DNA of 22,384 bases from a virus. A model generated the notes under the pieces. The model made no database searches, was not told where the DNA came from, and saw only the letters and a program-made list of their open reading frames with translations. Location of the stretch: positions 1 to 22,384 of the IMG/VR virus record IMGVR_UViG_3300030060_002598, one strand, 5' to 3'. The position numbers and the translations under genes were made by a program. Below, one piece after another: positions 1 through 19,051 of this stretch (position 1 is its first letter; every line of letters starts with the position of its first letter).

Positions 1-3000
1 CCTAATCTTGAGCCATTAGCAACTATAAAGTAATCTTTAGATTGACCTGTATCACTGATGGCAATAGCAGGATTTCCACTATCTTCTAAAAATAAAGTAG
101 CTTCTCCATTTGCATAAGAAATAGGGTTTGTTGTGTTAATACCAACAATCCCACCACCTTTAAGCATCATCAGTGTTTCTTGTGTTTGTGTCGCTCCTGC
201 CGACACAGTAGGTGAATGATAAAAAATAATATCATCACCCATTTGAATAAGTTTGCCAGCAGCGTTAGTAACAGCCTTATAACTTGAACCATCAAAGTAT
301 GAATTTTTAGAAAAACCATTGTGGCTTATAGCATAATCTTGTGTTCCTACTGTTAAGTATGCAGTATTGGCAGATGGAATTGAAGAAGTACCAACGCCTA
401 TATTCCCAGACGCATCAATAGCCATACTAAGTGTGTCCATACCATCTGAACCACCTCTTCTAAACTGTAATCCTCTACCTGATGATGAACCAGATTGATG
501 CACACCAATATGAAATTCACCAGAGCCATCACTAGCTGGGGTTACAAGCTCAAGCCCTTCATAAGATGAAGATTTAGAAAGAATAGCTAATGGTGCGTTT
601 GCAGTAGTGCCAACACCAAGACCTGTTGAGGTTAATCTCATATATTCAGTAGAACCATCAGCATTATCAAATGTTTGAACGCCACCTCTAAAGGTAAGAT
701 TGGTATTAGCATCAATTAAAAATGTACCAGAATTATTTGATAAACTTCCTGTAGTTCCAATATTGACAGTACCAGCAAATGTAGCATTAGCACCAGAGAA
801 AGTTACTGCTGTCGTTGGGGTTGATCCTGATTGTATGACAAGCTCACCAGAACTATTTAACAAACCACCATAGTTTGTACCACCTTGTTTTAAATAAACA
901 GCACCACCACTACCAGAAGATTGCTTGGTATTCAGTAAAATATTATCACCAGCATCTATAGATAAATTACCAGCTGATAAACTTATGGCTGTACCATCAA
1001 TGTGAAAATCATCAACATCAATGCCACCATCAGCTGTCACTAATCCACTTACTGTCAAAGAAGATAATGTACCTACAGATGTTATATTGGTTTGTGCTGC
1101 TGTTTGCAGCGTACCTGTGACCTGATTAAAAATGGCATTACCTGTTGTGCCAGAAAACACCTCACTGCTATTTGTTGCTGCTGTAAAAACAGTAAACGCA
1201 CTAGCACTATCATCATAGCCAAAAAAGCCAACTCTAGCAGAACCATCATTATATTTAAATTCTAAACCTCTATCTTTGTTGTCATCAGTGCTATTAGATC
1301 CAATCGTTAAAATAGGATCGACAACTGTAGTTACTGTACTATTAACTGTTGTTGTTGTGCCATTTACAGTTAGATCACCTGTAACATTTAGATTGTCATT
1401 AATCGTTACTTCTGAAGTAGAATGACCAATACTCACAGGCACACCACTTGTAGCTGTACCTATAGTAATTCCATTAGATGTATTACTATTATCAATGTTT
1501 AATGTACTTGTACTATCCAGGGAGATATTAGAGCCATCTACAACTAACGTACCATCTATATCTGTATCATCTAGATTAGTTGTACCAGCAATGTCAGCAT
1601 CACCAGATATATCTAATGATCCAGCATCTAATTCACCTGTCAGCGTAACATTACGAAAGCCTGTTATATCTTTATTGGTATCAACAATTGCTGCTTTACT
1701 AGCAGATACTATACCAGCTGTAATATCGTCAATTGCTTCCAGATCATTTTCATTAATAGCAGCATTACCAATTGTAAAACCTGTAGCTGTAACTGTAGAT
1801 GCAAAATGCGCTGTACCTGTATCGGTCATGTATAATCTTGGATTACCATCACCATCAGAAAGGACAATGTAATTACTTGATGTCCTTATGTCTAAGCCAC
1901 CCTCGTTACCATCAAAACCACCAACAATAGTATTTTTACTACCAGATGTTATGTGATAACCAGCTATTACACCAAGAAAAGTATTGTATGTTCCACTATC
2001 TAAACTATATCCAGCACGATTACCTAAAGCTGTATTGTTTGCAGCAAAACTTACAGCTGATGCTTCACTACTTGTAAGCTGTAAAGAGTATAATGTTTCG
2101 TGTCCAACAGCCGTATTAAAATTTGATAATTGTTCATTATATAATGCGCCATTTCCAATAGCCACATTATAAGATCCACCTAACAAACTTTTTCCAGCAA
2201 CACCACCAATTAATGTATCTCCAGAACCTGTCGTCACAGCTTCACCAGCCCTTGCACCTACAGCTACATTAAAAACATTATTATCAGAACTTGTATTGAG
2301 TTGCGCTGCTAATGCCTTATGACCAACAGCAACTGTCATATTTGTATTGGTTTCTGTCTTTAATGCTTCATTTCCAACAGCAACATTGTAATCACCTGTT
2401 GTAATAGCCGTACCAGCATCATGCCCTAAAAGCACATTGTACTGTCCACCACTTTGAATACTATCACCAGCATCTTGACCAGCAATTAAATTATCTGTTC
2501 CTGATGTAGTCGTATTAATAGCACTTGCTGTTATTGTTCCTGTAATTATGCTAGATGCAAAATTTGTGATTGCTGTATATTTAGCACTATTGGCATTAGT
2601 CGTTAATGGCTGCGCACCACTACTTGTATGCGCTGTATTAACAATAAAATGATCAGATGTACTTGTGTCTTTTACAATATCTCTTTCTTGATATGCTGTA
2701 TCAGCAGCCCAATCACCTCTAAGTGTGCCTATTTCCTGGGTTGCAATCGGTGTACCTGTGCTGTCAAACGATAATACTTTATTGGCTCTAGCTGTGGTAT
2801 CTTCTTCTATTTCTGGATAGGTAGACCCTATTTGCGAACCAGAACTATCAAGAAGATTAGAACGACTAAATTTTAAAGATCTGTCTACAGCTTCTTGTAC
2901 ACCTTGTATCTGCATTACCACTTTATCAAATTGTTCTTCAATAAGTGTTGCAGAAAATGGATCATTATCAACAAGGTCCAGTTCCTGTGTTTGCGGTTGT

Positions 3001-3299
3001 TGTCTGCGTAGAATTACCTTTTCACCGTTTGCCGGTCTAAAATCAGTTGTGGAATAATGAGCATCAGAGCTAGTTCCTGTATTAAATTTAAACAATATAT
3101 TACCACCACTAGTGTTACCTACAGAAGAGGTTGGTATAATATAATGACTGTCTAATGTTTTTTCTGTTTCCACACCGGCTGCACTACGTACAATAACTTT
3201 TAAGTCACTGGCTGCAAAAATCTTAAAGGTAAAACTAAAACTATGTGTCGATCCATCCGCTGATAAAATAACAACATTTGTACTAGATGATACTGTCAT
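1..3299 (-). CDS. Tail fibre protein, T7 gp17-like N-terminus with YadA-type repeats (3' end outside the window)
   Basis: This is an open frame of about 1,099 codons that runs off the left edge, so its C-terminus is missing. It starts at an ATG that overlaps the stop of the preceding gene (ATGA). Residues 1 to about 150 resemble the T7 tail-fibre N-terminal domain, which docks the fibre on the tail: a beta-rich start, then a DPFSATLIEEQFDK segment and a helical stretch. Residues about 269-462 carry repeated NVAVGNEAL, NTAVGHETL and NTALGNRAG motifs, as in YadA-like trimeric adhesin heads. After that comes a long Ser/Thr/Gly/Asn-rich beta-helix-like region with LNVTGDLTVNGTTTTVNST, a segment common in marine phage fibres, and later VGVGT/IGVGTS motifs. 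It probably forms a trimeric host-binding fibre. A chaperone domain such as peptidase S74 may lie beyond the edge, but none is visible here. Confidence 0.88.
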   Translation of the reverse strand, partial: MTVSSSTNVVILSADGSTHSFSFTFKIFAASDLKVIVRSAAGVETEKTLDSHYIIPTSSVGNTSGGNILFKFNTGTSSDAHYSTTDFRPANGEKVILRRQQPQTQELDLVDNDPFSATLIEEQFDKVVMQIQGVQEAVDRSLKFSRSNLLDSSGSQIGSTYPEIEEDTTARANKVLSFDSTGTPIATQEIGTLRGDWAADTAYQERDIVKDTSTSDHFIVNTAHTSSGAQPLTTNANSAKYTAITNFASSIITGTITASAINTTTSGTDNLIAGQDAGDSIQSGGQYNVLLGHDAGTAITTGDYNVAVGNEALKTETNTNMTVAVGHKALAAQLNTSSDNNVFNVAVGARAGEAVTTGSGDTLIGGVAGKSLLGGSYNVAIGNGALYNEQLSNFNTAVGHETLYSLQLTSSEASAVSFAANNTALGNRAGYSLDSGTYNTFLGVIAGYHITSGSKNTIVGGFDGNEGGLDIRTSSNYIVLSDGDGNPRLYMTDTGTAHFASTVTATGFTIGNAAINENDLEAIDDITAGIVSASKAAIVDTNKDITGFRNVTLTGELDAGSLDISGDADIAGTTNLDDTDIDGTLVVDGSNISLDSTSTLNIDNSNTSNGITIGTATSGVPVSIGHSTSEVTINDNLNVTGDLTVNGTTTTVNSTVTTVVDPILTIGSNSTDDNKDRGLEFKYNDGSARVGFFGYDDSASAFTVFTAATNSSEVFSGTTGNAIFNQVTGTLQTAAQTNITSVGTLSSLTVSGLVTADGGIDVDDFHIDGTAISLSAGNLSIDAGDNILLNTKQSSGSGGAVYLKQGGTNYGGLLNSSGELVIQSGSTPTTAVTFSGANATFAGTVNIGTTGSLSNNSGTFLIDANTNLTFRGGVQTFDNADGSTEYMRLTSTGLGVGTTANAPLAILSKSSSYEGLELVTPASDGSGEFHIGVHQSGSSSGRGLQFRRGGSDGMDTLSMAIDASGNIGVGTSSIPSANTAYLTVGTQDYAISHNGFSKNSYFDGSSYKAVTNAAGKLIQMGDDIIFYHSPTVSAGATQTQETLMMLKGGGIVGINTTNPISYANGEATLFLEDSGNPAIAISDTGQSKDYFIVANGSRL

Positions 3300-4861
3300 C
3301 TGCGCTCCTTTTGACTTTCTTTATCTAAAAATGCATTTTTTAAATTTTGATTTTGTGGTAAATCTAAAAACTTTTTTTGTGCCTTATCAAAAAACATATT
3401 ATTTAAATTTTCAATAATTTGTATTTTCTTTTTTACAGTTGTTTTTGGATTATGATATTCAGATGAATTAAAAAGTCTGCCTTTTGAAGTATTATTTATT
3501 AATGCTTGAAGAGCTTCATAAAAATATAAATCATTAACTTGTACTGGTTCATCATTTATGTCTTTACTCTTTGCTAATCTTGCAAAGTCTGATTGTTGAC
3601 CAGGTGACAAAATTATACCATTTAACCTTTTTTTATTTGTTAATGGATAATCATTATTTCCTGACATTCTATATAGATAACCAAGTTCTACTTCTACATC
3701 ATCCAAAGCTTTAGATTTTTTTATAGTTAAGCCTGTTGTAAAATTCCATAAAGCTTCTTTAAAATTATTTGAAAATGAAATACTATCTGCACCATAAGCA
3801 TTTCCTAATGGGTCATATTTTTTAACAAGAAGTTCATCTTTTTTAAATGCTGTTCTTTTACCTATAAGACTATTTGCCCATGATGACCAATTAATGTATT
3901 TTGACATATCATCTTGCTTTGGTGAACCTAACATACTGTAATTGGGTTCACCATTTTCTAATGTATAATTTTGCAAATCGTCAATAGTAATTAACAATTT
4001 ATCTTTTCTAGGTATTTTAACTGTAGGATCTCGTCCACGTTCAATAGCACCTTGTAATGAACTAAAAGCAAAAGGAAAATTTTCAACTATAGATATGCCA
4101 AATACATTGTTCATACTTTCAGCAAATCTTGTACTACCAATACCATCTTCTACATTAGCTGACGCTACTTCATATGCAGTAAATATTTCATTTAAACTTT
4201 TAAGTGTGGGTATTTCACGAAAAACATCAAATGTAGATAATGCAGAACCTATTACTAAATCTACTAATGTTTGCGTATCATCTTTGTTTGTTAATTGTGA
4301 ATTTAACATAAGTTCAGCTGTATTAGCATAAATAGACAATACTGATGCTAGTGGACCAAAACCAGCAATCGAAACATAATTTAATTTTCCATTTGGATTT
4401 CCAAATTGATCAAACAAGGGTTTGTCATCAGGAAAATTTTTACCTTTAAATACAAAACTAAACGGCTGTTTCCCTGCTCTATCAAAATCATTTCTTGCTT
4501 GTTCATTTCTTGGTTTTGCACCAATAAAACGTCCATTTGAAACTAACTCAAACATCATATATCCAACTGACATACCAAATGCCATTTTCCCCATAGCCAT
4601 TTGATGTTCTGCTGGACCTAATTCACCGAACAATGCTTTTTTTGTTTTAGGTCTTAATAAATTAATTAATGGTATAAATTCTGTAGTATTAAGAATATCA
4701 TTTGTTGGAGCTGTAGAAAAAGGTATTATAAATCTTCCTAATGCAGTATTTTGCACATCTCCAATTAATCTACCAAATTTTCCTAAATCTGAAGTTAAGG
4801 TAATTTTTGCTGCTTCTGTATCTAACTTATCATCAATTGCTTTTGGATCTAAATAAACCAT
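3296..4861 (-). CDS. Ejection/internal virion protein, C-terminal part (probably continues the ORF at 4921-6723)
   Basis: The ORF is 521 aa from the first ATG, which is preceded by GAAGAAGGTCTT and so could have a real ribosome binding site. The open frame continues 22 codons further upstream with no other start codon. The sequence GRFIIPFSTAPTNDI near residue 42 and the following MAMGKMAFGMSVGYMMFEL match the C-terminal part of very large virion proteins in other phages. There they directly follow the GDEFFKTLAARGE segment that ends the upstream ORF here. I therefore read this as the second half of a split protein. Its likely role is as a DNA-ejection or internal virion component, with a hydrophobic stretch around residues 93-108 that could contact membrane. 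The tail fibre start overlaps its stop codon. If it really is a separate gene, translation would depend on re-initiation. Confidence 0.75.
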   Translation of the reverse strand: MVYLDPKAIDDKLDTEAAKITLTSDLGKFGRLIGDVQNTALGRFIIPFSTAPTNDILNTTEFIPLINLLRPKTKKALFGELGPAEHQMAMGKMAFGMSVGYMMFELVSNGRFIGAKPRNEQARNDFDRAGKQPFSFVFKGKNFPDDKPLFDQFGNPNGKLNYVSIAGFGPLASVLSIYANTAELMLNSQLTNKDDTQTLVDLVIGSALSTFDVFREIPTLKSLNEIFTAYEVASANVEDGIGSTRFAESMNNVFGISIVENFPFAFSSLQGAIERGRDPTVKIPRKDKLLITIDDLQNYTLENGEPNYSMLGSPKQDDMSKYINWSSWANSLIGKRTAFKKDELLVKKYDPLGNAYGADSISFSNNFKEALWNFTTGLTIKKSKALDDVEVELGYLYRMSGNNDYPLTNKKRLNGIILSPGQQSDFARLAKSKDINDEPVQVNDLYFYEALQALINNTSKGRLFNSSEYHNPKTTVKKKIQIIENLNNMFFDKAQKKFLDLPQNQNLKNAFLDKESQKERR

Positions 4862-4930
4862 AAGACCTTCTTCAAAAGCTTCTTGATAATCTTGTTTATT
4901 TAATTTACCACCTGTTTCTATTATTTTCTA
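4859..4930 (-). other. Probable frameshift joining two virion-protein ORFs
   Basis: In transcript sense the upstream frame ends CAT AGA AAA TAA TAG. The downstream frame is already open from the AAA at 4927-4925. A one-base backward slip on AAAA (4927-4924), or one missing A in the assembly, joins the two frames. The joined product adds 21 residues (IIETGGKLNKQDYQEAFEEGL) and gives about 1,142 aa. Those residues look like ordinary coding sequence and bridge two halves that are fused in related large virion proteins. There is no canonical X-XXY-YYZ slippery heptamer. Confidence 0.6.
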
Positions 4931-6723
4931 TGTGCTTGCACACCAAGTTCACCTCTTGCAGCAAGCGTTTTAAAAAATTCATCACCAGCTAATAAAAATC
5001 TAAATGGTAACGTAAAAACTTTACTTACATAATCAACTGCTTTACCAGCAACACTTGATTTACCTGTAGATGCTTGCATAGATGGCGTAAGGTCTAATCT
5101 AGATCCTTTTGCTGGCATATTAGTTAACGCAGCTAATCGTGCAGCCTGTGTAGCATCTCTTATAGAACTCATCCACGATGCAACCCTATAAATAAAATCC
5201 ATTGTATTTACATTATCAACAGAATTTGCAAATTGTTCATCTAAATTTACATTTAATGTTCCTAAAATTTTTGCTAATGCTTTTGTTCTTTTACTTCCTG
5301 ATGGAAAACTAAACCTTACTAAATCACCATATATACCAGCAGCGAGTTCAGCTGGTAATAATGCTGTCATATAAGCAACATTACCAATTATATTTTTAGC
5401 TTGTGTTGCTGGGGAACTTAGTATGCTTGCCATAAAAGCTTGATGCACCTGATCTTTAGCACGAACCCACCAAGAATTTTCTGCAAAACTATTTATTCCT
5501 TTTAAAACACCACTTGCACCAGTGTTTTTATTTGTGTTTATTTCAATAGATTTTAATAAATCTGTTGCTAGTTTATCTACTACGCCTGATGTTAAATCTT
5601 CACGCATAGTCTGATCAAGCATACTTGCCGCAGCTCTTTCACTAATCTGCTCATCAATTGATGTTCCTACACGAATGTTAAAAGATTGTAAGGCTCTTGC
5701 TGCTTCTGTCTGCGCACCTTTCATTTGTGCTTGTATCGCTGAATGTATAGACAATTGCCTTCTAAACATAAGTTTATCTAAATCTGTTGCCTGACGATTA
5801 TCTATTAATTTAGCTAAATTTTCTAATTTTTTTGCACTATGTATAAGTAATTGTCTACCAGCTACTAAAACATAAGAACCAAATGTTTCTCCTTTTGCTC
5901 TGTTTATAATTTTTTTTGTTAGTCCAACTTCATCTTGTAATAAGTCAATTGATTTTTCTATAGTTTCTTTATTAGTTATAGTTCCACCAGTAAAACCACT
6001 CATGTCATTTTCTAACATTTTTGACATGGCTTGTATTGTATTTGTTAAATCTTCACTTGTTTCTATTCTATTAAAATTAATATCACCTACTTTCTTTACA
6101 TTGTTTTTTAAATATTCTTGTAGTTGCGCTGCCTTTGTTGGTGAAGCAGCACCAAAATCTGTTTTAAAATCTAATTTTTCAGCTGTAACACCTTTTTTTG
6201 CTGAGTTAATAATTTCTTCTGTTTTTGCGTCAAAATTATTTGCTTCATCAAGAATACTTAATGCATCTTGTTTAATTAATTCTTCTTGATTTTGAATGCT
6301 TTGAAAACCTCTGCTACGAAATCGTTCAAGACCTTCATTAGACAAAATGCCTTGATCAACCATTCTTTGAGCAACTTCGTTTTGTGTTTCTTTATAATTA
6401 AAATTACCTCTATCCGGAATAATGTTTGTTTCTTGTCCTGTTGGTACTCTAGATGGTTGTTGTGATACAATTCCTGGTGCAATAACTTTATCAGGATCAT
6501 CATACTCATCTGCGCCTTTAAAAGGTTTAAACACTTTTGATGGCTCACTTACTGGAGGTTGAACAAACATATCTGTTAATAATTTTATTCCTTTTAAAGA
6601 ACCCATTGCAAGTTGAGTAGGATCTTTAGCAAACTCGTCAGGTGAACCAGCTACGTCCATGCTTTGTGTAATTGTGTTTCTTTCCGCTATTTTTTGCGGA
6701 TCTAATGTAGGATCTATTGCCAT
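4921..6723 (-). CDS. Ejection/internal virion protein, N-terminal part (frame breaks at its end)
   Basis: This ORF is 600 aa from ATG 6723 (MAIDPTLDP). A TTG at 6750 would add nine residues, but it lies inside a terminator-like hairpin, so I prefer the ATG. The N-terminal 130 residues look disordered and proline-rich. From about residue 200 it has long helices (INFNRIETSEDL, FGSYVLVAGRQLL, HSAIQAQMKGAQTEAARAL) typical of large phage virion proteins. Then comes a hydrophobic region (FMASILSSPATQAKNIIGN, followed by VAYMTALLPAELAAGIYG) and finally FRFLLAGDEFFKTLAARGEL. In that family the chain continues for several hundred residues, and here the continuation is found in the -1 frame immediately downstream. 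The role is inferred from family resemblance and position: packed in the virion and ejected with DNA. Codons are notably A/T-rich. Confidence 0.78.
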   Translation of the reverse strand: MAIDPTLDPQKIAERNTITQSMDVAGSPDEFAKDPTQLAMGSLKGIKLLTDMFVQPPVSEPSKVFKPFKGADEYDDPDKVIAPGIVSQQPSRVPTGQETNIIPDRGNFNYKETQNEVAQRMVDQGILSNEGLERFRSRGFQSIQNQEELIKQDALSILDEANNFDAKTEEIINSAKKGVTAEKLDFKTDFGAASPTKAAQLQEYLKNNVKKVGDINFNRIETSEDLTNTIQAMSKMLENDMSGFTGGTITNKETIEKSIDLLQDEVGLTKKIINRAKGETFGSYVLVAGRQLLIHSAKKLENLAKLIDNRQATDLDKLMFRRQLSIHSAIQAQMKGAQTEAARALQSFNIRVGTSIDEQISERAAASMLDQTMREDLTSGVVDKLATDLLKSIEINTNKNTGASGVLKGINSFAENSWWVRAKDQVHQAFMASILSSPATQAKNIIGNVAYMTALLPAELAAGIYGDLVRFSFPSGSKRTKALAKILGTLNVNLDEQFANSVDNVNTMDFIYRVASWMSSIRDATQAARLAALTNMPAKGSRLDLTPSMQASTGKSSVAGKAVDYVSKVFTLPFRFLLAGDEFFKTLAARGELGVQAHRK

Positions 6724-6734
6724 ATTTTTACCAT

Positions 6735-6758
6735 AAAAAAAGGCCCCCAAAGTGACCT
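6735..6758 (-). terminator. Weak intrinsic terminator-like hairpin
   Basis: In minus-strand RNA, AGGUC (6758-6754) can pair with GGCCU (6745-6741), including one G-U pair, around an 8-nt loop. A run of seven U follows (6741-6735). It lies in the only gap between the 775-aa and 600-aa ORFs. The stem is short, so the effect may be partial. Confidence 0.4.
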
Positions 6759-6781
6759 ATTAGTTTTTTATTTAAATTAAT

Positions 6782-6859
6782 TTATGCTTTATCAACAGCT
6801 TCATCTAATGGTGTATTTACCTTTTCTAGCTTTCTAAGGGCTGCGTAAAACTTCTCCAT
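6782..6859 (-). CDS. Possible 25-aa ORF or out-of-frame tail of the 775-aa protein
   Basis: The frame reads MEKFYAALRKLEKVNTPLDEAVDKA and stops at TAA. It overlaps the last eight codons of the 775-aa gene in another frame and continues 17 codons past that gene's stop. No Shine-Dalgarno sequence precedes its ATG. It could be a tiny gene, a C-terminal extension reached by a frameshift near GTTTTA, or chance. In AT-rich DNA a short open frame is weak evidence. Confidence 0.2.
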   Translation of the reverse strand: MEKFYAALRKLEKVNTPLDEAVDKA

Positions 6860-9161
6860 TTGCGTTTGTGTTTTCGAATTGTCTTGCTGCTTGGTCAAGT
6901 AATCCTCTGTTGACTTCTGTGTTTTCATACCACGGCCTTTCTGTATTTTCTGTAACTTTAAATCCTTTAGGTATAATACCATTTTTAGCATTTTTTATAA
7001 ATTTTTCAAATTCTTTTTGTCTTGTTGGTGTCATAAAAACACTTGATCCATCACTTAGTGGATATTGTACAACAGGTCCATTTTCTGTTTGCGTATATCT
7101 TGCTCCAGATGAAAAAGTATTAAATTTACCTTCAACTACACTTTTGCCAATTGGTGAACCTTCAGTAATTGCACTTAGAGTGCTATGGCTTACAACTTGT
7201 TCTCCTTCAATAACCCAATTTTCCCAATGCCATCTGCCTAATGTTCCATCTTCTGGCCTACCTAAAAGTTCGTAAGTTTTTTGTATATTAGGTCTTAGAC
7301 CATCTTCAAGCATTTCTGTTAACAAAATTCCCCTTGGACCTCTAAATATGCCTTGTAATCCTTCACTAATTGTTGTTCCTTCTTTTTTAAAACCGTCATA
7401 TATATTTTTACCACCAAATCTACCATCGTCCCATAAATGCCGGCCTTGTATTCTGTCCATAACTAACACATCATCTCTACCAGCAACAAGCAATGTAAAT
7501 GATACTACCTTATTATCAATTCCAGCACCTTCAGTTAAAGCCATAAATTCACGCCTTATGTCTTTTGCTGAAACATTAGGGTCAGCTATCATATTATGTA
7601 AAGATTGTAATACAGTTAAATCACTTCCTTGTGGTTTTTTTGATAACTCAAACAATAATTTACCAGCAGCATTTACATTCATAGTCACTTGTTTACCTGG
7701 TGATCCTTCAGGTAAAGAATTTTTGATAGTGTTTTCCCACTGAATTTTGTCAGCTTCTGAAAACGTACCATTTACCACTTTTTCTATAAGTGGTCTAGCG
7801 TCTTGCATAATATCTATAAATGCTGCTTCTTGTTGTACTGGACCAGCTCCTCTTGACAATATACCCCAAACAAACAAATCAGCTGTCATAATTGGTGATG
7901 ATTGTCCACTTGAATAAATATCTCTTATATCTTTAACATAACTAAAACCTTCATCTACACCTTCTTTCATTTCTGGTGTAAGATTTTTAAGTTTTTCTGC
8001 CATTTTTTCTGGACTATTAGCGTATTCTATTGCTTTCAGCGGTGGAATAGGCAAATACTGACCACCAAATGCTTCCTTTTCCATCATTAACCAATTTTCT
8101 GTGCTTTGTAACGCTTGTGGATGAGTATTTGAAGTTTGATCTATTGCAGTAAAGACTTCCTTTTTATTGTTTGGTGTAAAAGCTTGGACAACAGGATTAA
8201 TAGGTTTTTCGCCATCACTTTCAACTAACAATTGATGTGGAACTTTGTGCGCTCTTGCATCTACAGGTGCTGGTTTTAAAGATTGAAAAAGTTTAATAAT
8301 TTTTGTTAAAGGTGCAGCTTCACCTTCTTCTTGTGTGGCTGCCGCACCAACGCCACCAGCAATAGTAGCCTTCCCTAATGTTGATGCAAATATTTTTGAT
8401 GCAGCAATAAATGCAGTTGTTAAAGCTGCACCAACGCCAACTGTATCTGTTAACGCCCCTTTCACACCAGCTTTAAACCTTTCATAGGAAGATACATCAT
8501 TTGGATCTTCTATTTGTGATTGCATAAATTTTACAAATTCGTTTTCAACACCTAAAGAAACAGCAACATCCGCAAGGTTACCGGTTTCTGGCGTAACTGC
8601 ATAATCAGCACCACTGCCTTTTATAAATCCTTTGGCCACACTAGAACCTTTTGCAGGGGTAAGGGATGCTGCAACTAACCATTGCGTTATATCTGAAACT
8701 ATTTGTCCAACACCTGTTTCTGGCTCAATTGTTTTTAAAGCATTGTCAAAATCGCTCTTTTTTAAACCAAATATAGGCATAACCATTTCTACTACATCTA
8801 TATTATCAAAAGAAATACCATATGTGTCTTTATATTTTTTTTGTAAAAATGCATTTGGAGCTGGATTTATTACAGATCCAATTAATGTAGATACATCTTT
8901 TGTGGCATCTAAAGCACTAGTAACACCTTTTGTTATTCCTGTTGTTGCAACTTTACCTATTTCTTGACCAATACCACTTTCGTTTAATTGTTTAGAAGCT
9001 TCAGAAAGTGCCTGACCACTTGGTGACATACCAGGATTGTAATTATTCAAAGTTTTGAAAATATTTGTCATTAAATCTGTTTCAACAACACGATTATCAC
9101 CATCATTATCATCTAATCTTTCTAAACTATCATACACATAATTTTCTAATCTTTGATCCAT
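6834..9161 (-). CDS. Large internal/ejection virion protein with possible HhH-glycosylase-like segment
   Basis: The ORF is 775 aa and starts 8 nt after the preceding stop, with AAGG six bases before the ATG. Residues about 158-255 (QWLVAASLTPAKGSSVAKGF, then YERFKAGVKGALTDTVGVGA) match the pattern seen in large marine-phage virion proteins, including a hydrophobic stretch near 238-262 that could cross a membrane. Residues about 300-580 form a different domain: DLFVWGILSRGAGPVQQEAA, then NKVVSFTLLVAGRDDVLVMD followed by RIQGRHLW. This arrangement resembles the phage DUF7178 or helix-hairpin-helix glycosylase-like pattern (KVxxFxxxLxGxxDxVxxDR). That similarity is from memory and weak. I see no lytic transglycosylase motif like that of T7 gp16. 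By position it is an internal virion or ejection protein. Confidence 0.78.
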   Translation of the reverse strand: MDQRLENYVYDSLERLDDNDGDNRVVETDLMTNIFKTLNNYNPGMSPSGQALSEASKQLNESGIGQEIGKVATTGITKGVTSALDATKDVSTLIGSVINPAPNAFLQKKYKDTYGISFDNIDVVEMVMPIFGLKKSDFDNALKTIEPETGVGQIVSDITQWLVAASLTPAKGSSVAKGFIKGSGADYAVTPETGNLADVAVSLGVENEFVKFMQSQIEDPNDVSSYERFKAGVKGALTDTVGVGAALTTAFIAASKIFASTLGKATIAGGVGAAATQEEGEAAPLTKIIKLFQSLKPAPVDARAHKVPHQLLVESDGEKPINPVVQAFTPNNKKEVFTAIDQTSNTHPQALQSTENWLMMEKEAFGGQYLPIPPLKAIEYANSPEKMAEKLKNLTPEMKEGVDEGFSYVKDIRDIYSSGQSSPIMTADLFVWGILSRGAGPVQQEAAFIDIMQDARPLIEKVVNGTFSEADKIQWENTIKNSLPEGSPGKQVTMNVNAAGKLLFELSKKPQGSDLTVLQSLHNMIADPNVSAKDIRREFMALTEGAGIDNKVVSFTLLVAGRDDVLVMDRIQGRHLWDDGRFGGKNIYDGFKKEGTTISEGLQGIFRGPRGILLTEMLEDGLRPNIQKTYELLGRPEDGTLGRWHWENWVIEGEQVVSHSTLSAITEGSPIGKSVVEGKFNTFSSGARYTQTENGPVVQYPLSDGSSVFMTPTRQKEFEKFIKNAKNGIIPKGFKVTENTERPWYENTEVNRGLLDQAARQFENTNANGEVLRSP

Positions 9162-9169
9162 ATCAAACC

Positions 9170-11155
9170 TTAATAATTTATGCCAAAATTTCTTAACGCT
9201 CTTTCAAAATAATCAATTTCTTTGTATATTTCTTTTTGTGAAGCTATATCTCTAGGGGCTTCTTCAGTTAAAATTCTTAACCTTTCAAGACCAATATCAC
9301 GTGATTGCTCTAAAATACGTGCTAATTGAGGTGTAGTACCTGTAGCAACAAATGTTTCGCTTTCACCTAAAGAAGTGTTGTATAAAGGCAATCCTAGATC
9401 ATCTCTTCTATTTCTATCATTGTAAATCTTTATTTGTTCAATGGCATCTTCTACAATAACTCTTTGAAATTCAGTTTGATTATTTTTTTTAATTTTAGAA
9501 AGCTCTTCACGTATCATTTCTTGTGTCAAAAGAATTTTCTTTTCTCGAGAAGCATCAACAAATCTTAACAATTCACTTGATATAATATTGACGTGTCTTG
9601 CCGCAGCTATCACTAAACTATCATTTCCATAATTTTCCAATTCTGCTAGATTTGCTCCTGACCTTTCTTTTTCTTCTTTAATTCTTTCATTAACAAAACT
9701 AATAATAGTTTGATTTTCTTTATAAATACGTATTTTATCTTTATATTCAGAAATAATATTTCGATAATTATCAGTATTTGGCAACAAAGAATAGCCATCT
9801 ATTTTTGGATATTCTTCTATTGTTTTACGTAACATTGTATGTGTAAGCTGATTGTCTAATAACAAATCGTCAAGTTTATTTTTAAGCCTATCTATAGCAA
9901 ATTCATCTCCAAATTGTATACTTCGGTCAGTTTCTGTCCTTGAAATAGAACTTAACGCATCTCGTTCTTCTTGACTAAATCTAGATTGTAATCCAATTGG
10001 ATTTACATTAACCATAGAATTAAAAATATTTTTTAAATCAAAACCAGTTATTGATCTTTGTGATTGTGTTTGAGAAATAATTTCTTGTTCTACATTATTT
10101 TTTAAAACTTTTATGTCACTTGGTATATTTTGAGTAATATCATTAAATAATTCTAATGCCTGATCTTGATTGTACACAGCGGAATTTTGTATAATAACTA
10201 TATCATTTATAAATTCTGATCTTTTTTCTATTAATTCATCTTCTTGATTTTTTTGAAAATCGTCAAAATCTTTTCTAGCTGAAGTAGCACTTGATAAATT
10301 CTTTATTAATAATTCTGAACTATAAACATCATCAAGATTAAATAATGCTTCTAATATTCCACTACCGATGTTTTGTTCAAAATTTTCTGGTAATTTTGAT
10401 AATTTAGAACTAACAGAATTACCAGATGTATTATTAAAATTAATTAAATCAAAAACAAAACCTACTCCTTTTTCTGGATTATCATTAATAAAATCATTTA
10501 TCATAATTGTGCCAGCTTTTTGAATAAAAGAATTTCTAGCAATTAAACCTTTGTTTGTTAAAGTTAATTGCCCATTTTTATCTTTTGCTGTAAAACCTGG
10601 GGTTGTTCTTATAAATTCATTAATAATAAAATTATATTCATTTTGATTTGTCTTACTATTTAACTTTGATAATGATACATCTTCTTTTTGCTTTAAGGCT
10701 AATGCTGCCCTTGCTGCAATCGCTGCATCTACTTTTTTTCTTAATCTAGTTCTTGCACTGTTTTCAGCAATATTAAATTTACTCTCAAATTTAAGTCTAG
10801 AATTAAGATTTGTACCTATATTGTTTTGTAATGTTGTTTTTATTTCATTAACTTGCTGGTTCCATCTTGGTTGATCACCATCAAGTACAGAATAAATATT
10901 AGCATCATTTGCCATAACATTTTCTAATGACGCTAATTGCGTTGCCGCAGCTAATAAATTTTCTTCAAGTTTTAATTCTTCAGCAACTCTATATCGACCT
11001 AATGATATTTCTGCAACCTCACCCAAAAAAGCGTTTAGCGGTGCTGCTTTATCTATTTCTGACTGTGCAACACTAAAACTTTTTCTTGCACGTATAGACG
11101 CACCAGGCGCACGATTAGAGGGATTAAACTTAGCTGTGTAGGTCGGTATTCTCAT
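9170..11155 (-). CDS. Internal virion protein, helical (T7 gp15 position)
   Basis: This is a 661-aa protein whose ATG shares one base with the preceding stop (TAATG). The sequence is dominated by Lys/Glu/Asn/Ile-rich helical segments with coiled-coil character, for example around residues 60-160 and 330-560. I see no enzymatic motif, signal peptide or clear membrane segment. The N-terminus (TAKFNPSNRAPGASIRARKS) is basic and probably extended. Its place between a gp14-like protein and a larger ejection protein matches the gp14-gp15-gp16 order of T7-type internal cores. That is an inference from order, not from sequence identity. Codons are strongly A/T-rich compared with the capsid and terminase genes. 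Confidence 0.7.
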   Translation of the reverse strand: MRIPTYTAKFNPSNRAPGASIRARKSFSVAQSEIDKAAPLNAFLGEVAEISLGRYRVAEELKLEENLLAAATQLASLENVMANDANIYSVLDGDQPRWNQQVNEIKTTLQNNIGTNLNSRLKFESKFNIAENSARTRLRKKVDAAIAARAALALKQKEDVSLSKLNSKTNQNEYNFIINEFIRTTPGFTAKDKNGQLTLTNKGLIARNSFIQKAGTIMINDFINDNPEKGVGFVFDLINFNNTSGNSVSSKLSKLPENFEQNIGSGILEALFNLDDVYSSELLIKNLSSATSARKDFDDFQKNQEDELIEKRSEFINDIVIIQNSAVYNQDQALELFNDITQNIPSDIKVLKNNVEQEIISQTQSQRSITGFDLKNIFNSMVNVNPIGLQSRFSQEERDALSSISRTETDRSIQFGDEFAIDRLKNKLDDLLLDNQLTHTMLRKTIEEYPKIDGYSLLPNTDNYRNIISEYKDKIRIYKENQTIISFVNERIKEEKERSGANLAELENYGNDSLVIAAARHVNIISSELLRFVDASREKKILLTQEMIREELSKIKKNNQTEFQRVIVEDAIEQIKIYNDRNRRDDLGLPLYNTSLGESETFVATGTTPQLARILEQSRDIGLERLRILTEEAPRDIASQKEIYKEIDYFERALRNFGINY

Positions 11156-11700
11156 TAGCTCTGCCCTACCCTTCCTATATTTCTACCACCATAAAATTCT
11201 GTACCTAATCTTGCTGCCTGTCCTAAAGAACTAATAAGTGATTTTGTACCTTGCGCCTGTAAACTAGCCGCTTGTGCGCCACCTTCCATACGAGATAATT
11301 CTGCTTGCAAACGTGCATCTTCCTGTTTGTCATTGATCTCCATATTAATAAGTTCGTTTTCAAAATCCATCTGTTCTAAAGTAAAATCAAATTCATTGGC
11401 ACTTTCTAAACCAACAAATATAGGCGTACCCATAGATAAATCTACACCGGAATAAGCAAACCCAGCACGTTGCTCACCACGTAAAGTATCAAAATCTTTC
11501 CTCGCTCTTTTTTTGGCAAGCACTAAATTATCATTAATAATCGTGCGTTGCTTTTCTAAAAGATCTATATCACGTTCAATTAACTTAGCGTTAAACTCTC
11601 CAACTTCTCTAGCTGCTTGTGCGGCACTGTCTGCTGCACGTTTTTGTTGTAAGCCACCAATTAAAGTAGCCCCTAATGTTAATACTTGAAATATGCTCAT
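11155..11700 (-). CDS. Internal virion protein, T7 gp14-like
   Basis: The protein is 181 aa and its start abuts the tail tubular B stop codon (TAG-ATG). A short hydrophobic N-terminus (VLTLGATLIGGLQ) is followed by long Ala/Glu/Arg-rich helices. A central turn reads RAGFAYSGVDLSMGTPIFVG, a feature typical of gp14-like virion proteins in podoviruses. The C-terminus is Ala/Gly-rich. Proteins of this kind are ejected with the DNA and help to form the channel across the outer membrane. The assignment rests on length, the central motif and position just after tail tubular B. Confidence 0.7.
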   Translation of the reverse strand: MSIFQVLTLGATLIGGLQQKRAADSAAQAAREVGEFNAKLIERDIDLLEKQRTIINDNLVLAKKRARKDFDTLRGEQRAGFAYSGVDLSMGTPIFVGLESANEFDFTLEQMDFENELINMEINDKQEDARLQAELSRMEGGAQAASLQAQGTKSLISSLGQAARLGTEFYGGRNIGRVGQS

Positions 11701-14073
11701 CTAAATATCAAAAGTTGTTAATCTTGGATAAATTGCTAATACTGTCAAAGGTAAAGCTTGGGTTTGTCTAAGGTGTACTGTGTCATTTTCATAGTACGTA
11801 CCGGTAAATTCTACTGTTTTATCACCAGTAAATAACGGTACTGCTTCACTTGCCGCCATAGAACTATCACGAAATGGTATACTTTCCAATGTGTCATTAT
11901 TAGGTCCAACATCTAACCCTACTGTATTTAACAATCGTACAGTAACGCCATGCAATCTTTTAGGCTTGCCTTGTGATGTACCATCTGCACTACCAGCTTC
12001 TAATCTTAATGTTTGCATACTTGAATTATATCCTAGACCCATAACCGCCAATGTGCTTTCAAATGATAATGTTACATCACCAGATGATACTGTACGCACA
12101 GCATGAGCTGCTCCATTGGCCGTTATAGAAATAACCTGACCTTCCAAATGATATAACCCTGTCATAGCTGTTGTTCTTTGTGTTGAATAATCAGCTGGCG
12201 TAGGCCATCCAGATGGAAAAGTTAAGGCACTATCACAAAAGAAAGCTTCTTCTGTTGTATTGCCAAATTCAATTGATTTTAATCGCTCAATATATCTTTT
12301 TGTAGCACTATTAATTGTTCTTTTGACAATCATGTATAATTCATCTTCACCACTATCTGACGGTAAAGTTGCAATACTTTCTACAACAGCATTTGTTTGT
12401 GATGCACAACGTAAATTATTATCATCTGACGATGTTGCCGTTACCACCTGACCAATAGCAGATTTTATAGTAACTGTGGTTGTACTTGCTGTAGCCGTGA
12501 AATCATCATGGTTATTAATGGCTGTCGCTAGATTTGTAGCTGTTGTATTACTTGCACCACTTACAGGAATAAAATGTAATGTAGATGTCGCTGATGATGC
12601 GCCTAATGCATCCGCTGTAAATGTAACGCTTGTACCATCACCTTTTGTTAACGTAACCGTCTTACCAACAAATGATGATGTTATGCTTCCTACAGTTACT
12701 GTTGTTGTTCCTAATACACCACCTAATAAATGTTTATGCCACGCAACCACCTGCTCTTCTCGCCTGTATGTCATGCCCAACAAAACACCATCACTGCGCA
12801 AACACCAAACAATACTATCCGGCTCCTGTTGATACGCAAACTCACTAATACCACCCTCTGTAATATGTTCAGAGAGTATAGTCATATCCGGTGCTTGATA
12901 ACCAAATTCATCTACATCACCTACATATCTAAACTCACGTACTTTACGCTGATTACGCTGCAAAAATAAAGTCACATCAGCCACCTGTACTGGTGCTACT
13001 TTTGCAGAACCATAATTACTATACTTTCTTATGAGCGTTGTTGTTGGCGTGATTGGACCTTGACTTGATGTTGTTACAACAAATTCACCACCAGCCGTAC
13101 CAATAACTAAAACCCTTGTCGCTGACATCCACCGGATTTCATTGACCGTATTACTTGCAATTGTATAAACTAATGCATCGTCTGCATTAGAACCAGTGGT
13201 AAAATCTGTATAGCTGCCGTTTTTACTAAAAAATATTGTTTGTGGATTATTGTTTGTACCGGCAAATACTAACCGTTGTTCAAAGAAAGTAACCACAGAT
13301 GGATAATTATCTGAACTTACATTGAGATTTAAAATAGATGAATTACTTGATGATGTTAAAGTAGGGGTTGCAAAGGTCCAGTTATTATTTGCAGATCGTG
13401 TTAATGTTCTTATTGCATGACTAGGATGCACTAAAAACATCGTATCAGCACTTTGCGCAAAGTTTACATCTGCTAAATCTGATGAGCTATAAGGCGTTGC
13501 TACCTCAAATATTTTGTCAACTGTTTGCGTTTCTCCAGCGGAAAATGTACTCATACTAGTTGTATCAATTGCATTTCCAAACAAGTCTGTTAACGTAAAA
13601 GTATTCGTTGTTACATTTGCAATTTTAAAATTTCTATTTTGCAAATCAGCTAAATAAGTAGCACCTACACCACTCATGTTTAAAAATACTTCATCACCAT
13701 TACTTAACTGATGATTATTACTAGTGAAAACACCTGGATTAGCATTTGTCATAGCCGTAAGAGTTTTAGCAGATTCTGTTAAAATTTGCTGACCACTGCG
13801 ATACACACGCATGATCTGATCACCAAATTCAAGAATATACGTATCACTTGTTTTAAACTGAAAAGGTATCAACCTTGTTGTGTCATCACTATCTTTAACT
13901 TCACCTAAAAATTCTGTGCCTGGTCTACGTGTAACACCACCTTGCGGAAGAACAAGAAAATTCGTTAAATCAGACAATCCTTCTGAGTATTTCTGAAGTC
14001 CAACCCTGCCTTCAAGCTTCGGAGATAATTCACCGCCTGTAAATGAAGATAATGCTGGAGCTGATTTTGGCAT
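11701..14073 (-). CDS. Tail tubular protein B-like (nozzle), with inserted domains
   Basis: The protein is 790 aa and its ATG overlaps the tail tubular A stop (TAATG). The N-terminus ALSSFTGGELSPKLEGRVGL and then NFLVLPQGGVTRRPGTEFLG are hallmarks of a widespread phage tail protein family that forms the lower tail or nozzle. Residues about 190-450 and 563-790 belong to that core (FEQRLVFAGTNNNPQTIFFS, then VKRTINSATKRYIERLK). Two segments look added. Residues about 106-186 resemble the E1-FCCH-like fold seen in phage proteins (NPGVFTSNNHQLSNGDEVFL). Residues about 455-562 resemble a Thr/Ser-rich Ig-like or adhesin-like domain (GKTVTLTKGDGTSVTFTADA). Role: closes the tail and carries the fibres. 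Confidence 0.85.
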   Translation of the reverse strand: MPKSAPALSSFTGGELSPKLEGRVGLQKYSEGLSDLTNFLVLPQGGVTRRPGTEFLGEVKDSDDTTRLIPFQFKTSDTYILEFGDQIMRVYRSGQQILTESAKTLTAMTNANPGVFTSNNHQLSNGDEVFLNMSGVGATYLADLQNRNFKIANVTTNTFTLTDLFGNAIDTTSMSTFSAGETQTVDKIFEVATPYSSSDLADVNFAQSADTMFLVHPSHAIRTLTRSANNNWTFATPTLTSSSNSSILNLNVSSDNYPSVVTFFEQRLVFAGTNNNPQTIFFSKNGSYTDFTTGSNADDALVYTIASNTVNEIRWMSATRVLVIGTAGGEFVVTTSSQGPITPTTTLIRKYSNYGSAKVAPVQVADVTLFLQRNQRKVREFRYVGDVDEFGYQAPDMTILSEHITEGGISEFAYQQEPDSIVWCLRSDGVLLGMTYRREEQVVAWHKHLLGGVLGTTTVTVGSITSSFVGKTVTLTKGDGTSVTFTADALGASSATSTLHFIPVSGASNTTATNLATAINNHDDFTATASTTTVTIKSAIGQVVTATSSDDNNLRCASQTNAVVESIATLPSDSGEDELYMIVKRTINSATKRYIERLKSIEFGNTTEEAFFCDSALTFPSGWPTPADYSTQRTTAMTGLYHLEGQVISITANGAAHAVRTVSSGDVTLSFESTLAVMGLGYNSSMQTLRLEAGSADGTSQGKPKRLHGVTVRLLNTVGLDVGPNNDTLESIPFRDSSMAASEAVPLFTGDKTVEFTGTYYENDTVHLRQTQALPLTVLAIYPRLTTFDI

Positions 14074-14678
14074 TAAAATCTGCTTTCGATAAGATCAGAA
14101 GCTTCAATGCGTTGTGGCGCACCTTCAGTAGCGTCAACAAAACGTGCTTCTTTTAGTTTCTCCTGATATAAATTATACGTGCTATTCATCAAAGTATTAG
14201 AACCGGTAATCGCATAGCAAACTTCATGCGCTAAACGTGCTGCTAATGCTTCAATTAATCCACTATCATACTTTGTTGTATCGGTAATTTGACCAATATA
14301 TTTAATTTTTGCCGTACCTTCATCTGTAAGTAATAAACGACCTTCAATGACATAAACAGGCTTACCATCGTTTGTAAGCATATTATCCATAGGATACGTT
14401 AATGTACCATTACTAAATTCAAGCACTCTTAAACAGGATGGGTCTGTTGGTAAGATAAACTGGTTAGTATATCCAAAGTTTGGTGAAGAGCTGTCTTTTG
14501 ACAAGGTAGCTCTAGATATTAAACTATTCCAAGGATGCGCCCTAAATACAGCATCACGAACATTATCAAATCTTTGATTAATAACAGTTGCTGCCTTAAC
14601 ATTTTCAGTAAAAGAACTAATAGTACTTGCGCCTATAATATTTAAAGCAAAGTTAGCAATGTCTACTTTAGATGCCAT
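14073..14678 (-). CDS. Tail tubular protein A-like (adaptor below the portal)
   Basis: The protein is 201 aa, close to T7 gp11 (about 196 aa). The start follows a clear AGGAGA ribosome site six bases upstream, just after a strong terminator. The N-terminus KVDIANFALNIIGASTISSF, then VINQRFDNVRDAVFRAHPWN, is the classic opening of the gp11 or gatekeeper family. The late segment GLIEALAARLAHEVCYAITG is the usual helix in that family. It should form the ring that joins the portal to the nozzle protein encoded next. The order A then B is conserved across T7-like podoviruses. Confidence 0.88.
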   Translation of the reverse strand: MASKVDIANFALNIIGASTISSFTENVKAATVINQRFDNVRDAVFRAHPWNSLISRATLSKDSSSPNFGYTNQFILPTDPSCLRVLEFSNGTLTYPMDNMLTNDGKPVYVIEGRLLLTDEGTAKIKYIGQITDTTKYDSGLIEALAARLAHEVCYAITGSNTLMNSTYNLYQEKLKEARFVDATEGAPQRIEASDLIESRF

Positions 14679-14690
14679 TTATATCTCCTA

Positions 14691-14720
14691 AAAAAAAGAA
14701 GGGGGGAAAAATCCCCCCCC
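14691..14720 (-). terminator. Strong intrinsic terminator between head and tail genes
   Basis: In minus-strand RNA, eight G (14720-14713) are followed by AUUUUU and six C (14706-14701), forming a 7-bp stem with a 4-nt loop. The tract UUCUUUUUUU (14700-14691) follows directly. It starts six bases after the TAA of the probable cement gene. T7 places its T-phi terminator at the same point, between the capsid gene 10 and the tail gene 11, to make capsid transcripts more abundant than tail transcripts. Confidence 0.9.
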
Positions 14721-14726
14721 AACTTA

Positions 14727-15188
14727 TTAGTCAACCACGTATTTTATGGTTAACTCAATGGTTCCTGTGCCAGCAGCACCACCCATTGTTACGGTTACTG
14801 CAACACCATCACCGTTGGTATCTGTGACTGTGCCTGACCCTAGAGCCAATGTAGCCATTATATCTACCTTTTGTGCGGATGTTGATGCAGCAGCTGCTTT
14901 ATAAGCGGCAGCGGATGCACTTACAGCTGTACCGGAACTATTGGTATGCGCTGCATAACCAACCGATAAGGTCGTAGAGGAACCTAACGCATCATGCGCT
15001 AATGATCCTTCTAACAACCGTGCGTTGTGCGGAAGTATAAACATTTCAATAACATCACCAGATGCTAAAGAAGATGCTTCATATACGTCATGCGCAACAC
15101 GTATTCTACCACCCATTTTATTTACTGGGTTTTTTACGGTTGGAACTGCTCTTGTGTTGGTTCTACCAACAGAGTAAACTGTAGCCAT
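14727..15188 (-). CDS. Probable head cement/decoration protein
   Basis: This small protein is 153 aa, rich in Ala, Thr, Gly, Ser and Val, and looks all-beta. A near-ideal AAAGGAGAT ribosome site lies seven bases before the ATG and overlaps the capsid stop codon. An internal start (IRVAHDVYEASSLASGDVIE) and the C-terminal TIELTIKYVVD suggest a compact jellyroll or sandwich. Its place straight after the capsid gene and before the terminator matches the cement protein Bbp16 of phage BPP-1, whose module is also portal, Bbp19, scaffold, capsid, cement. The strong ribosome site and position suggest high-level synthesis. I assign function by context and fold type, not by clear identity. Confidence 0.68.
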   Translation of the reverse strand: MATVYSVGRTNTRAVPTVKNPVNKMGGRIRVAHDVYEASSLASGDVIEMFILPHNARLLEGSLAHDALGSSTTLSVGYAAHTNSSGTAVSASAAAYKAAAASTSAQKVDIMATLALGSGTVTDTNGDGVAVTVTMGGAAGTGTIELTIKYVVD

Positions 15189-15200
15189 GATCTATCTCCT

Positions 15201-16058
15201 TTACTCGTTACAAGCAATTTCAACTACTTTTTCTTCTTCCATTCTAGTAGAACCGAATGAAGAACAGTAGTAGACTTGCGTTGCATAGGATTTATCGGAG
15301 CGTTCATCGATCTTGGCGTTTGGCTCTTTACCAATGGCAAGTTTCATACCATCTTGCGCCCATGCATAACATAAACGGCTAGTGCCATCGTCTGTTAGAC
15401 GGTTGCTGGTAATAAACTTGAAGCCAACAAACGTATCAATATCACCCTGTACTAAAGCTTTGACCGTATTAAAGTCAGCACTTGTTACAGTAGTGCTATT
15501 GAGTAGATCTTCAATTTGCTCCGGCGATACAACAATGTATCTAGGAATAGATGGATCAACTGATTTTTCATCTAGTTTTTTCTTAGCCGTTACGAGCTTT
15601 GCAATGGTAAGACCAGCACTACCATGAGCAATTTTTTGCGCAGATGGTAATGTTGTAGATGTAGAACCTGTTGTACCAGTTAAGGCTGTTCCACCCATAG
15701 CAGCAATAATAACATCATCCATAGAACGACCTATAGCAGCGGCCGCAGCCCTTGCATAAGTGCTTTCTGGAGATATGAGCATACGTAATTTATCCTGATC
15801 ATCTATCAGGTCCGCATATTCATAATCCGTTAATGTTACCATCCTACGACTATGTGGCGTGTTCATAAGGGGGGTATCTGCGTGTCTGCTCGTCTTAGCA
15901 GCAGCGGCAGCTTGCCCAACCTGTTCAAAAAATGCTTTGTCACCAGTAATGCTTTCAACATCCACCGTATCACGCAATAGGGAACCCATTTGCTGTGATA
16001 GCATTTGAACATTGGAACTATACTGTTGTACAAAAGCAGTCGTGATTTGTGTAGACAT
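15201..16058 (-). CDS. Major capsid protein (HK97-fold, Phage_capsid_2-like)
   Basis: The protein is 285 aa with a strong AAAGGAG site eight bases before the ATG and the longest untranslated leader (130 nt) among the head genes. The N-terminus MSTQITTAFVQQYSSNVQML, the AFFEQVG motif, NTPHSRRMVTLTDYEYADL, LIDDQDKLRML and the Ala-rich helix ARAAAAAIGRSMDDVIIAAM are the usual signature of this podovirus capsid family. A C-terminal FGSTRMEEEKVVEIACNE closes the fold. It follows the scaffold and precedes the cement protein. The good ribosome site and the downstream terminator suggest it is the most abundant product of the region. Confidence 0.92.
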   Translation of the reverse strand: MSTQITTAFVQQYSSNVQMLSQQMGSLLRDTVDVESITGDKAFFEQVGQAAAAAKTSRHADTPLMNTPHSRRMVTLTDYEYADLIDDQDKLRMLISPESTYARAAAAAIGRSMDDVIIAAMGGTALTGTTGSTSTTLPSAQKIAHGSAGLTIAKLVTAKKKLDEKSVDPSIPRYIVVSPEQIEDLLNSTTVTSADFNTVKALVQGDIDTFVGFKFITSNRLTDDGTSRLCYAWAQDGMKLAIGKEPNAKIDERSDKSYATQVYYCSSFGSTRMEEEKVVEIACNE

Positions 16059-16188
16059 AAATCACACTCCTTTACTAAAGTTAAAATTAAAATTTATTTT
16101 TTTGCCAGATAATCCAAAATGGGTCTGTCTTGTTCATTTAGCAGAACCAACACTGTTGACTTACAACTTGCAGAAGGGCCGTTGCCGG
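16059..16188 (-). promoter_or_regulatory. Leader between scaffold and capsid genes
   Basis: This is the longest gap within the structural operon. It ends in AAAGGAG eight bases before the capsid ATG. It contains a 16-codon open frame (MNKTDPFWIIWQKNKF, 16130-16080) with no ribosome site, and a short inverted repeat CAACA-G-TGTTG. I see no convincing sigma70 promoter. A phage-specific promoter cannot be judged from one copy. Confidence 0.35.
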
Positions 16189-17004
16189 TTATCCTACGTG
16201 AATATGCTCTCGTAGCTGTAAAGCTTCTTGAACATAAAAATCGTGCTGTGGATGGGATTTATCCCAATACGGCGTGTCCTTGGCCGTAATCTCCATCAGT
16301 TTTCTGTTTGCTTCCTGTGGTGTCATTATTAAATCGTTTGTTTCACCTTCCAATGTATCTTCTCCCATTTGATCAGCTAAATTAACAAACAATCGAATAA
16401 TATCAGGATGATCACCTAAAAGCCTACCATCAGCCAATTCAATTGTATCCAGTGGATCTATCGAACCTAATAACTGTGTGGCAGCACTTTTAGCCATTTT
16501 CATCTTTTGGTCAAACGCTTTCCCAAATTCTTTTTCGAGTTGCGCTTTTGTTTCCGTAAGGGCGGTTTCAACTTGGGTTTCTCTTGCCTGACCTTCTTGA
16601 GTGGCGGCTTCGGCAAACGCTTTCGCCATACGTTCAGCTTGCTTTCCATTAAGACCGGTATCATAAGCAATTTGCTTAAAAGTAGCCAAATCAGGGTCTG
16701 CAAACCCTTCAACGCTTTCAAAATCATATTCAGTGGGCGCATTAGGACGGCCAAGCCTTTCATAAACATTATTCCACTCCTCATCTGTTGCTGATTTGCC
16801 AGGTAATGGCAATTTATCTACGCCAATCATTTTCTGTGCATGAACGTAGGATTTTGCCAATCCAGCTGTATCTGTGAAATTACGTAGGCTTGGTTCTCCA
16901 CGTAAATCTTCTGGTAATGTATCAATAAATGATGCTGGTGCAGCGTCTGTAACCGGTGCTGCTTCGGTTTGAGATCCAGTTTCTTGGATTACCTCTTCAC
17001 TCAT
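16189..17004 (-). CDS. Capsid assembly scaffolding protein
   Basis: The protein is 271 aa and overlaps the preceding gene by 8 nt. It is acidic, with an Ala/Thr/Glu-rich N-terminus, then DTLPEDLRGEPSLRNFTDTA and LAKSYVHAQKMIGVDKLPLP, and a proline-rich turn (GRPNAPTEYDF). These are typical of T7-type scaffolding proteins. A long charged helix or coiled coil (residues about 115-180) and a C-terminal segment ending TAKDTPYWDKSHPQHDFYVQ follow. Scaffolds of this kind guide procapsid assembly and leave before DNA fills the head. Its position directly before the capsid gene supports this strongly. Confidence 0.9.
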   Translation of the reverse strand: MSEEVIQETGSQTEAAPVTDAAPASFIDTLPEDLRGEPSLRNFTDTAGLAKSYVHAQKMIGVDKLPLPGKSATDEEWNNVYERLGRPNAPTEYDFESVEGFADPDLATFKQIAYDTGLNGKQAERMAKAFAEAATQEGQARETQVETALTETKAQLEKEFGKAFDQKMKMAKSAATQLLGSIDPLDTIELADGRLLGDHPDIIRLFVNLADQMGEDTLEGETNDLIMTPQEANRKLMEITAKDTPYWDKSHPQHDFYVQEALQLREHIHVG

Positions 17005-17248
17005 TAGATATTTCCTTCTGTTGTTCTAATTTTTCCTGTGGCTGCATCATGCGTATGATATTCAGCACAACAGACCGTTGCCCCTCAAAAAAGGCGGTGT
17101 CATAAGGATCACCTTTAGCATAAGTTGTTTGGTAAAAACCAAAGCATACCTTTAAATGCTCCAGTATAACCTTACCATCATCTGTATTAAATATTCGCCG
17201 ATAGTTATCTTTTAGATCACCAGTGCGTATTTGACTAATTTTCTTCAT
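16997..17248 (-). CDS. Bbp19-like head-module protein
   Basis: The protein is 83 aa, starts inside the portal stop (ATGA) and overlaps the scaffold start by 8 nt. It contains NYRRIFNTDDGKVILEHL, a KGDPYDTAFFEGQRSVVLNI segment and a helical tail. This YRR-F-DG-VL then DP-TAF-EG-RSVVL pattern is characteristic of the small Bbp19-type family found between portal and scaffold in BPP-1-like and many marine podoviruses. Its exact role is not well defined; it is thought to be structural or an assembly factor. Confidence 0.75.
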   Translation of the reverse strand: MKKISQIRTGDLKDNYRRIFNTDDGKVILEHLKVCFGFYQTTYAKGDPYDTAFFEGQRSVVLNIIRMMQPQEKLEQQKEISNE

Positions 17249-18867: not shown

Positions 18868-19051
18868 GATAATCCTTTGTTGTTTTTGTAGAATTTAGAG
18901 CTTTTGTATATTGTGTATCTAATGAATGCTTCCAATCAACAATCGCATCCGCTTTTGTCAACCAATCCAATTCATCCCATTGATCATTAAATTTTATGTA
19001 TCCCTCACCATTGATCTGATCCCAGTGAAGCATAGCAAAATTAACTTTCAT
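18851..19051 (-). CDS. Small hypothetical protein
   Basis: The protein is 66 aa and its ATG overlaps the previous stop (TGATG); its 3' end overlaps the portal start. It is Trp-rich (five Trp, including FNDQWDELDWLTKADAIVDW) and has a basic C-terminus. The tight coupling on both sides supports it as a real gene. I recognise no function. Small genes of this kind often lie between large terminase and portal in marine podoviruses. Confidence 0.65.
   Translation of the reverse strand: MKVNFAMLHWDQINGEGYIKFNDQWDELDWLTKADAIVDWKHSLDTQYTKALNSTKTTKDYHGHSK

Follow-up and report, generated by a model that had tools for sequence, protein, structure and literature searches.

A marine phage contig, IMG/VR record IMGVR_UViG_3300030060_002598, carries one large virion gene as two abutting open reading frames (ORFs), and the locus raises the question of whether the interruption is a recoding site, a stable division of one protein into two, an error, or the scar of a broken gene. 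The stretch analysed, hereafter the window, comprises positions 1 to 22,384 of the record (22,384 nucleotides). A preliminary description made from the letters had attributed the split to a single-base frameshift at AAAA-TAA, with a programmed slip, a disabling or splitting mutation and a sequencing or assembly error of one A as competing explanations. Here, we describe the junction, identify the protein and its intact homologues, and weigh these explanations against close relatives.

Reading frames at the junction

The upstream frame, ORF A, is located on the minus strand at 4919..6720 and encodes the N-terminal 599 residues of a gp16-like internal virion (ejection) protein, from ATG 6720 to a TAA stop at 4921-4919. 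An ORF finder list had given it 609 residues from an upstream TTG at 6750; this start was replaced by ATG 6720, where the sequence MAIDP... aligns with the MAIDP start of the closest homologue, L001 (IMG/VR contig 3300030104_003337). The 3' end of ORF A reads CAT AGA AAA TAA TAG, a second stop codon directly following the first (4921-4916), and the AAAA-TAA-TAG context occupies minus-strand positions 4925..4916. In the -1 frame, no stop codon occurs between 4927 and the stop at 3296, and the first ATG is at 4861. From this ATG, ORF B (3296..4861, minus strand) encodes the C-terminal 521 residues of the same protein, and its stop overlaps the start of the fiber gene (ATGA).

The -1-frame codons immediately upstream of ATG 4861 (4862..4910, minus strand), GKLNKQDYQEAFEEGL, are coding-like and homologous to GKLSDQDYDDAVDAGL of L001 although they are part of no ORF having its own start codon. 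ATG 4861 is preceded by GAAGAAGGTCTT, GAAGAAGG sits 4 nt before it, and the stop codon pair of ORF A lies about 57 nt before it. The two abutting frames (0 and -1), the opening of the -1 frame at the AAAA-TAA-TAG point, the GAAGAAGGTCTT ahead of ATG 4861 and a short product of about 600 residues followed by a 521-residue chain had all been described previously, and each of these stands, with the short product refined to 599 residues from ATG 6720.

Protein identity, ejection cassette and phage affiliation

The relatives that proved decisive were supplied by a search through the neighbouring gp14-like gene, which yielded 67 loci, many of them spanning the gp16-like gene. Scans with protein patterns from one half or the other recovered L001 at most. 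Degenerate DNA patterns for DEFFKTLAARGELG and PTNDILNTT matched only the contig of L001, and the DEFFKTLAARGELG pattern found nothing in bacterial genomes. Neither kind of scan found a conspecific contig with an intact or an interrupted allele among the records searched, from which the window's own record and very near ones may be absent. The L001 homologue is a single ORF of 1127 residues that matches both halves of the window gene, ORF A with 62% identity over residues 1-579 and ORF B with 57% identity. About three dozen homologues were examined, and all but two are single ORFs through the junction point, the exceptions being one on a contig that is frameshifted throughout (L054) and one in phage MEP301. 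Where the contig holds the whole gene, near relatives are single ORFs of approximately 1074-1145 residues with L054 as the sole exception; the L023 homologue is continuous across the junction, and its contig ends inside the gene. The continuous large ORF of the gp16-like relatives is divided in the window. The proposal of one ancestral protein of about 1,130 residues cut in two is supported by these homologues, which are nearly all single ORFs, and none of the near relatives keeps the shift.

The PHROG 6651 profile (phrog_6651, internal virion protein) matches the C-terminal half of the window protein (E 1.1e-6), the L001 protein across the junction (residues 555-788, E 7.6e-6) and 15 of 16 relatives, which places the protein in that family by sequence-profile match. 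Isolated phages, among them Roseobacter CRP phages, the pelagiphages HTVC028P, HTVC119P and HTVC200P, S-CBP42, S-TIP28, and Desulfovibrio phage ProddE, encode distant homologues that are labelled internal virion protein or internal virion protein D, and nearly all of these are single ORFs. Among solved structures, no match to the gp16-like protein was found at E<=1. The window protein resembles T7 gp16 (internal virion protein D, PHROG 6651) in its gene order before the tail fiber and in its profile match, but it is very divergent (22-27% identity to isolates) and broken.

The upstream genes, all on the minus strand, comprise a gp14-like internal virion protein of 181 residues (11155..11700; Pfam T7_gp14, E 3.8e-5, just below the gathering cut-off), a gp15-like protein of 661 residues assigned by position and homology (9170..11155), and a 775-residue protein (6834..9161) whose first ~290 residues are conserved. 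The order gp14-like, gp15-like, 775-residue protein, gp16-like, and fiber fits a T7-type ejection module, and the placement of the gp16-like gene after the gp14/gp15-like genes and before the tail fiber is found in the window, L001, and the isolates. Judged from sequence, ORF A and ORF B each encode one half of a single T7 gp16-like internal virion protein, and the product of the split gene is very probably a virion ejection protein, as had been suggested.

By sequence similarity, the phage is a relative of the HTVC010P/Skadi-type pelagiphages (Polarivirus skadi), to which its portal and tail tubular B proteins are approximately 58-62% and 48-54% identical, respectively. Most isolates of that group have no detectable match to the gp16-like protein; only HTVC028P does, at 25-27%. 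A hypervariable region with an internal virion protein has been described for HTVC010P and discussed for Skadi (PMC10504331). In the window, the ejection-protein cassette (3300-10703) appears swapped relative to L023, L090, and L094. The DNA of L023 is 97.6% identical to the window over 10703-19520 while its gp16-like protein is only about 46-53% identical. The stretches 11547-12769 and 768-3299 are about 87-91% identical in L090, which encodes unrelated large proteins between them. The cassette is also AT-richer (GC 0.26-0.35 vs 0.37-0.41). The first ~290 residues of the 775-residue protein are kept in L001/L062 and L023 while the C-terminal ~480 are not detectably related; this protein, for which no Pfam or PHROG match above cut-off was found, is a probable ejected protein with a polymorphic C-terminal domain. 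Another small variable spot is located at ~19520-19817, where the N-terminal half of a 192-residue protein (19242-19820) is unmatched in L023 between flanks that are 98% identical.

The missing segment and the origin of the break

In an alignment of 23 near-relative loci, some of them near-identical, a conserved block, R-[Y/F]-x3-L-R, directly follows the point at which ORF A ends: the first R is kept in 22 of 23, the aromatic residue and, after three variable positions, the L in all 23, and the final R in 22. This block is absent from the window junction (4911..4927, minus strand), where IIETGGKL, read in the -1 frame, comes directly after AHRK and where the move to the -1 frame is accompanied by TAA TAG. 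The L001 protein is longer by 8 residues at exactly this point. Measured between CATAGA and the GGT codon of GKL/GDL, the window DNA is a net 25 nt shorter than that of L001, the closest homologue, and 22 nt shorter than that of L023, the next closest. Both lengths equal 1 modulo 3, and one out-of-frame deletion is thus enough to account for the shifted frame, the two stop codons and the loss of the block. The single-base frameshift that had been proposed is therefore not supported, and an error of one A is disfavoured because one base leaves 22-25 missing nucleotides unexplained. The earlier statement that the 521-residue chain directly follows the GDEFF segment in related proteins is only roughly correct; several tens of residues lie between, and this interval contains the block that the window lacks. 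The junction is flanked by two copies of a short repeat, ATAGAAA, spaced 10 nt apart; with 39 pairs of this kind in the window, they say little about its origin. In an AlphaFold2 model of the intact L001 protein, which is poor overall (mean pLDDT 49), the missing block lies within the last third of one predicted helix (552-591), at a pLDDT of ~63-67.

The timing of the break can be approached through the substitutions downstream of it. The 16 codons from the junction to ATG 4861 differ from L001 by 4, 2, and 7 changes at codon positions 1, 2, and 3, respectively, and are as similar to L001 as is the rest of the protein. With L023 as the outgroup, lineage-specific changes number 42 in the window and 32 in L001 for the C-terminal half, and 62 and 48 for the N-terminal half, such that the C-terminal half shows no excess and the ratio is the same in both halves. 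Violations of family-invariant columns are likewise no commoner in the C-terminal half (4 vs 6). Because the codon-position pattern, the change ratios, and the invariant columns show that constraint held, the C-terminal half appears to have been under selection in a continuous frame until recently, an indication only, given the small numbers in the 16 codons.

Together, these comparisons argue that the gp16-like gene was most likely disrupted by one recent deletion, out of frame and of net 22-25 nt against its two closest intact homologues. Such a deletion would have removed most of the conserved helix segment, R-[Y/F]-x3-L-R. Translation would terminate at TAA TAG after 599 residues, and any synthesis of the C-terminal half would depend on weak re-initiation at an inherited internal methionine. 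We infer a single event, a recent date, and a defective outcome, namely a two-piece protein lacking the conserved segment and most likely non-functional for DNA ejection. The ejection proteins are required for podovirus infectivity, and T7 gp16 depends on its charged C-terminal residues (reviewed in PMC8954989); from these T7 requirements, a phage making only the 599-residue fragment would most likely be non-infectious. A disabling mutation or an assembly error, both envisaged from the start, thus survives, in the form of a deletion, and it is about equally likely that the contig represents a real defective or minor phage variant and that the deletion arose in assembly or in the library. A generally error-prone contig is unlikely since the head, tail, and packaging genes that were compared match L023 frame-consistently.

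Alternative explanations and implications

A single-base indel, either real or introduced by sequencing or assembly, in a gene that already had a naturally shorter linker than its relatives is unlikely. The linker does vary in length across the wider family, and reading through in the -1 frame gives a family-typical overall length of 27-29 residues from GE[LF] to the invariant methionine. The distant homologues of the CRP phages, HTVC028P, and ProddE have shorter linkers that lack the R-[Y/F]-x3-L-R block, which shows that the linker is dispensable in parts of the wider family. This explanation, however, requires two changes along the same branch, and one of them must have deleted a block that all 23 near relatives possess, the two closest included. 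Furthermore, a homopolymer of just A4 is not a typical error site and offers little opportunity for indel errors in short reads, and the reading frames of the other genes compared on the contig are intact.

It is similarly doubtful that the phage lives with a two-piece gp16-like protein (599 and 521 residues, perhaps with some slipped fusion) and dispenses with the helix segment. A stable gene fission into two separately translated subunits, with ORF B starting at ATG 4861, is a little less likely still. The isolated Methylophilales phage MEP301 carries its homologue on two overlapping ORFs, gp24 and gp23, which suggests that splitting may be tolerated in the family and is the chief argument for this alternative, and GAAGAAGG lies 4 nt from the ATG. 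In MEP301, however, the split lies ~90 residues upstream and consists of overlapping ORFs, not of a junction with a missing segment; the two ORFs (L005, 4239-5633 and 5578-7338) overlap by 56 nt in different frames, which may reflect true fission, recoding or a sequence error. In the window, the split coincides with the missing block, the codons ahead of ATG 4861 are still coding-like, and two stop codons precede that ATG. The methionine of ATG 4861 is invariant in 23 of 23 relatives, where it lies inside intact proteins, and GAAGAAGG corresponds to codons for E-E-G in the same aligned segment. As these are inherited internal positions, neither ATG 4861 nor GAAGAAGG is evidence of an evolved start; low-level re-initiation there, which had also been proposed, is possible. 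The five-piece homologue of L054 (IMGVR_UViG_3300046167_000074) was considered as support for recurrent splitting and rejected, for its portal, tail tubular B, and fiber genes are frameshifted along with the gp16-like gene and the sequence is probably error-prone.

A programmed -1 frameshift, in which the ribosome would slip on A-AAA while TAA occupies the A site and so yield forms of 599 and about 1,142 residues, is highly improbable. In its favour, the P-site tRNA can re-pair perfectly on AAA, and the downstream frame is open and was selected until recently; as a slippery sequence, A AAA TAA permits re-pairing in the P site only and does not follow the X XXY YYZ heptamer pattern. Against it, near relatives on normal contigs carry the gene as one uninterrupted ORF and lack the shift site, the slipped fusion would lack the block kept in 23 of 23 near relatives and so differ from the homologous full-length protein, and the frame change coincides with a length loss of 1 modulo 3. 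No stimulatory structure occurs at the usual spacing, the nearest predicted stem beginning ~30 nt past the slip site (z -1.6), and no paper in the literature collection searched joined programmed frameshift, internal virion protein, and phage.

The favoured explanation, a recent out-of-frame deletion, carries a caution for metagenomic phage contigs, in that a clean -1 shift at A AAA TAA can mark a broken gene and not recoding; it was the alignment of close relatives that revealed that a conserved segment had been lost at the apparent recoding site. If the two-piece form were nevertheless true, then, together with MEP301, it would mean that this ejection protein can be split repeatedly, and a split that is both real and tolerated would identify a place at which a DNA-ejection protein can be cut in two.
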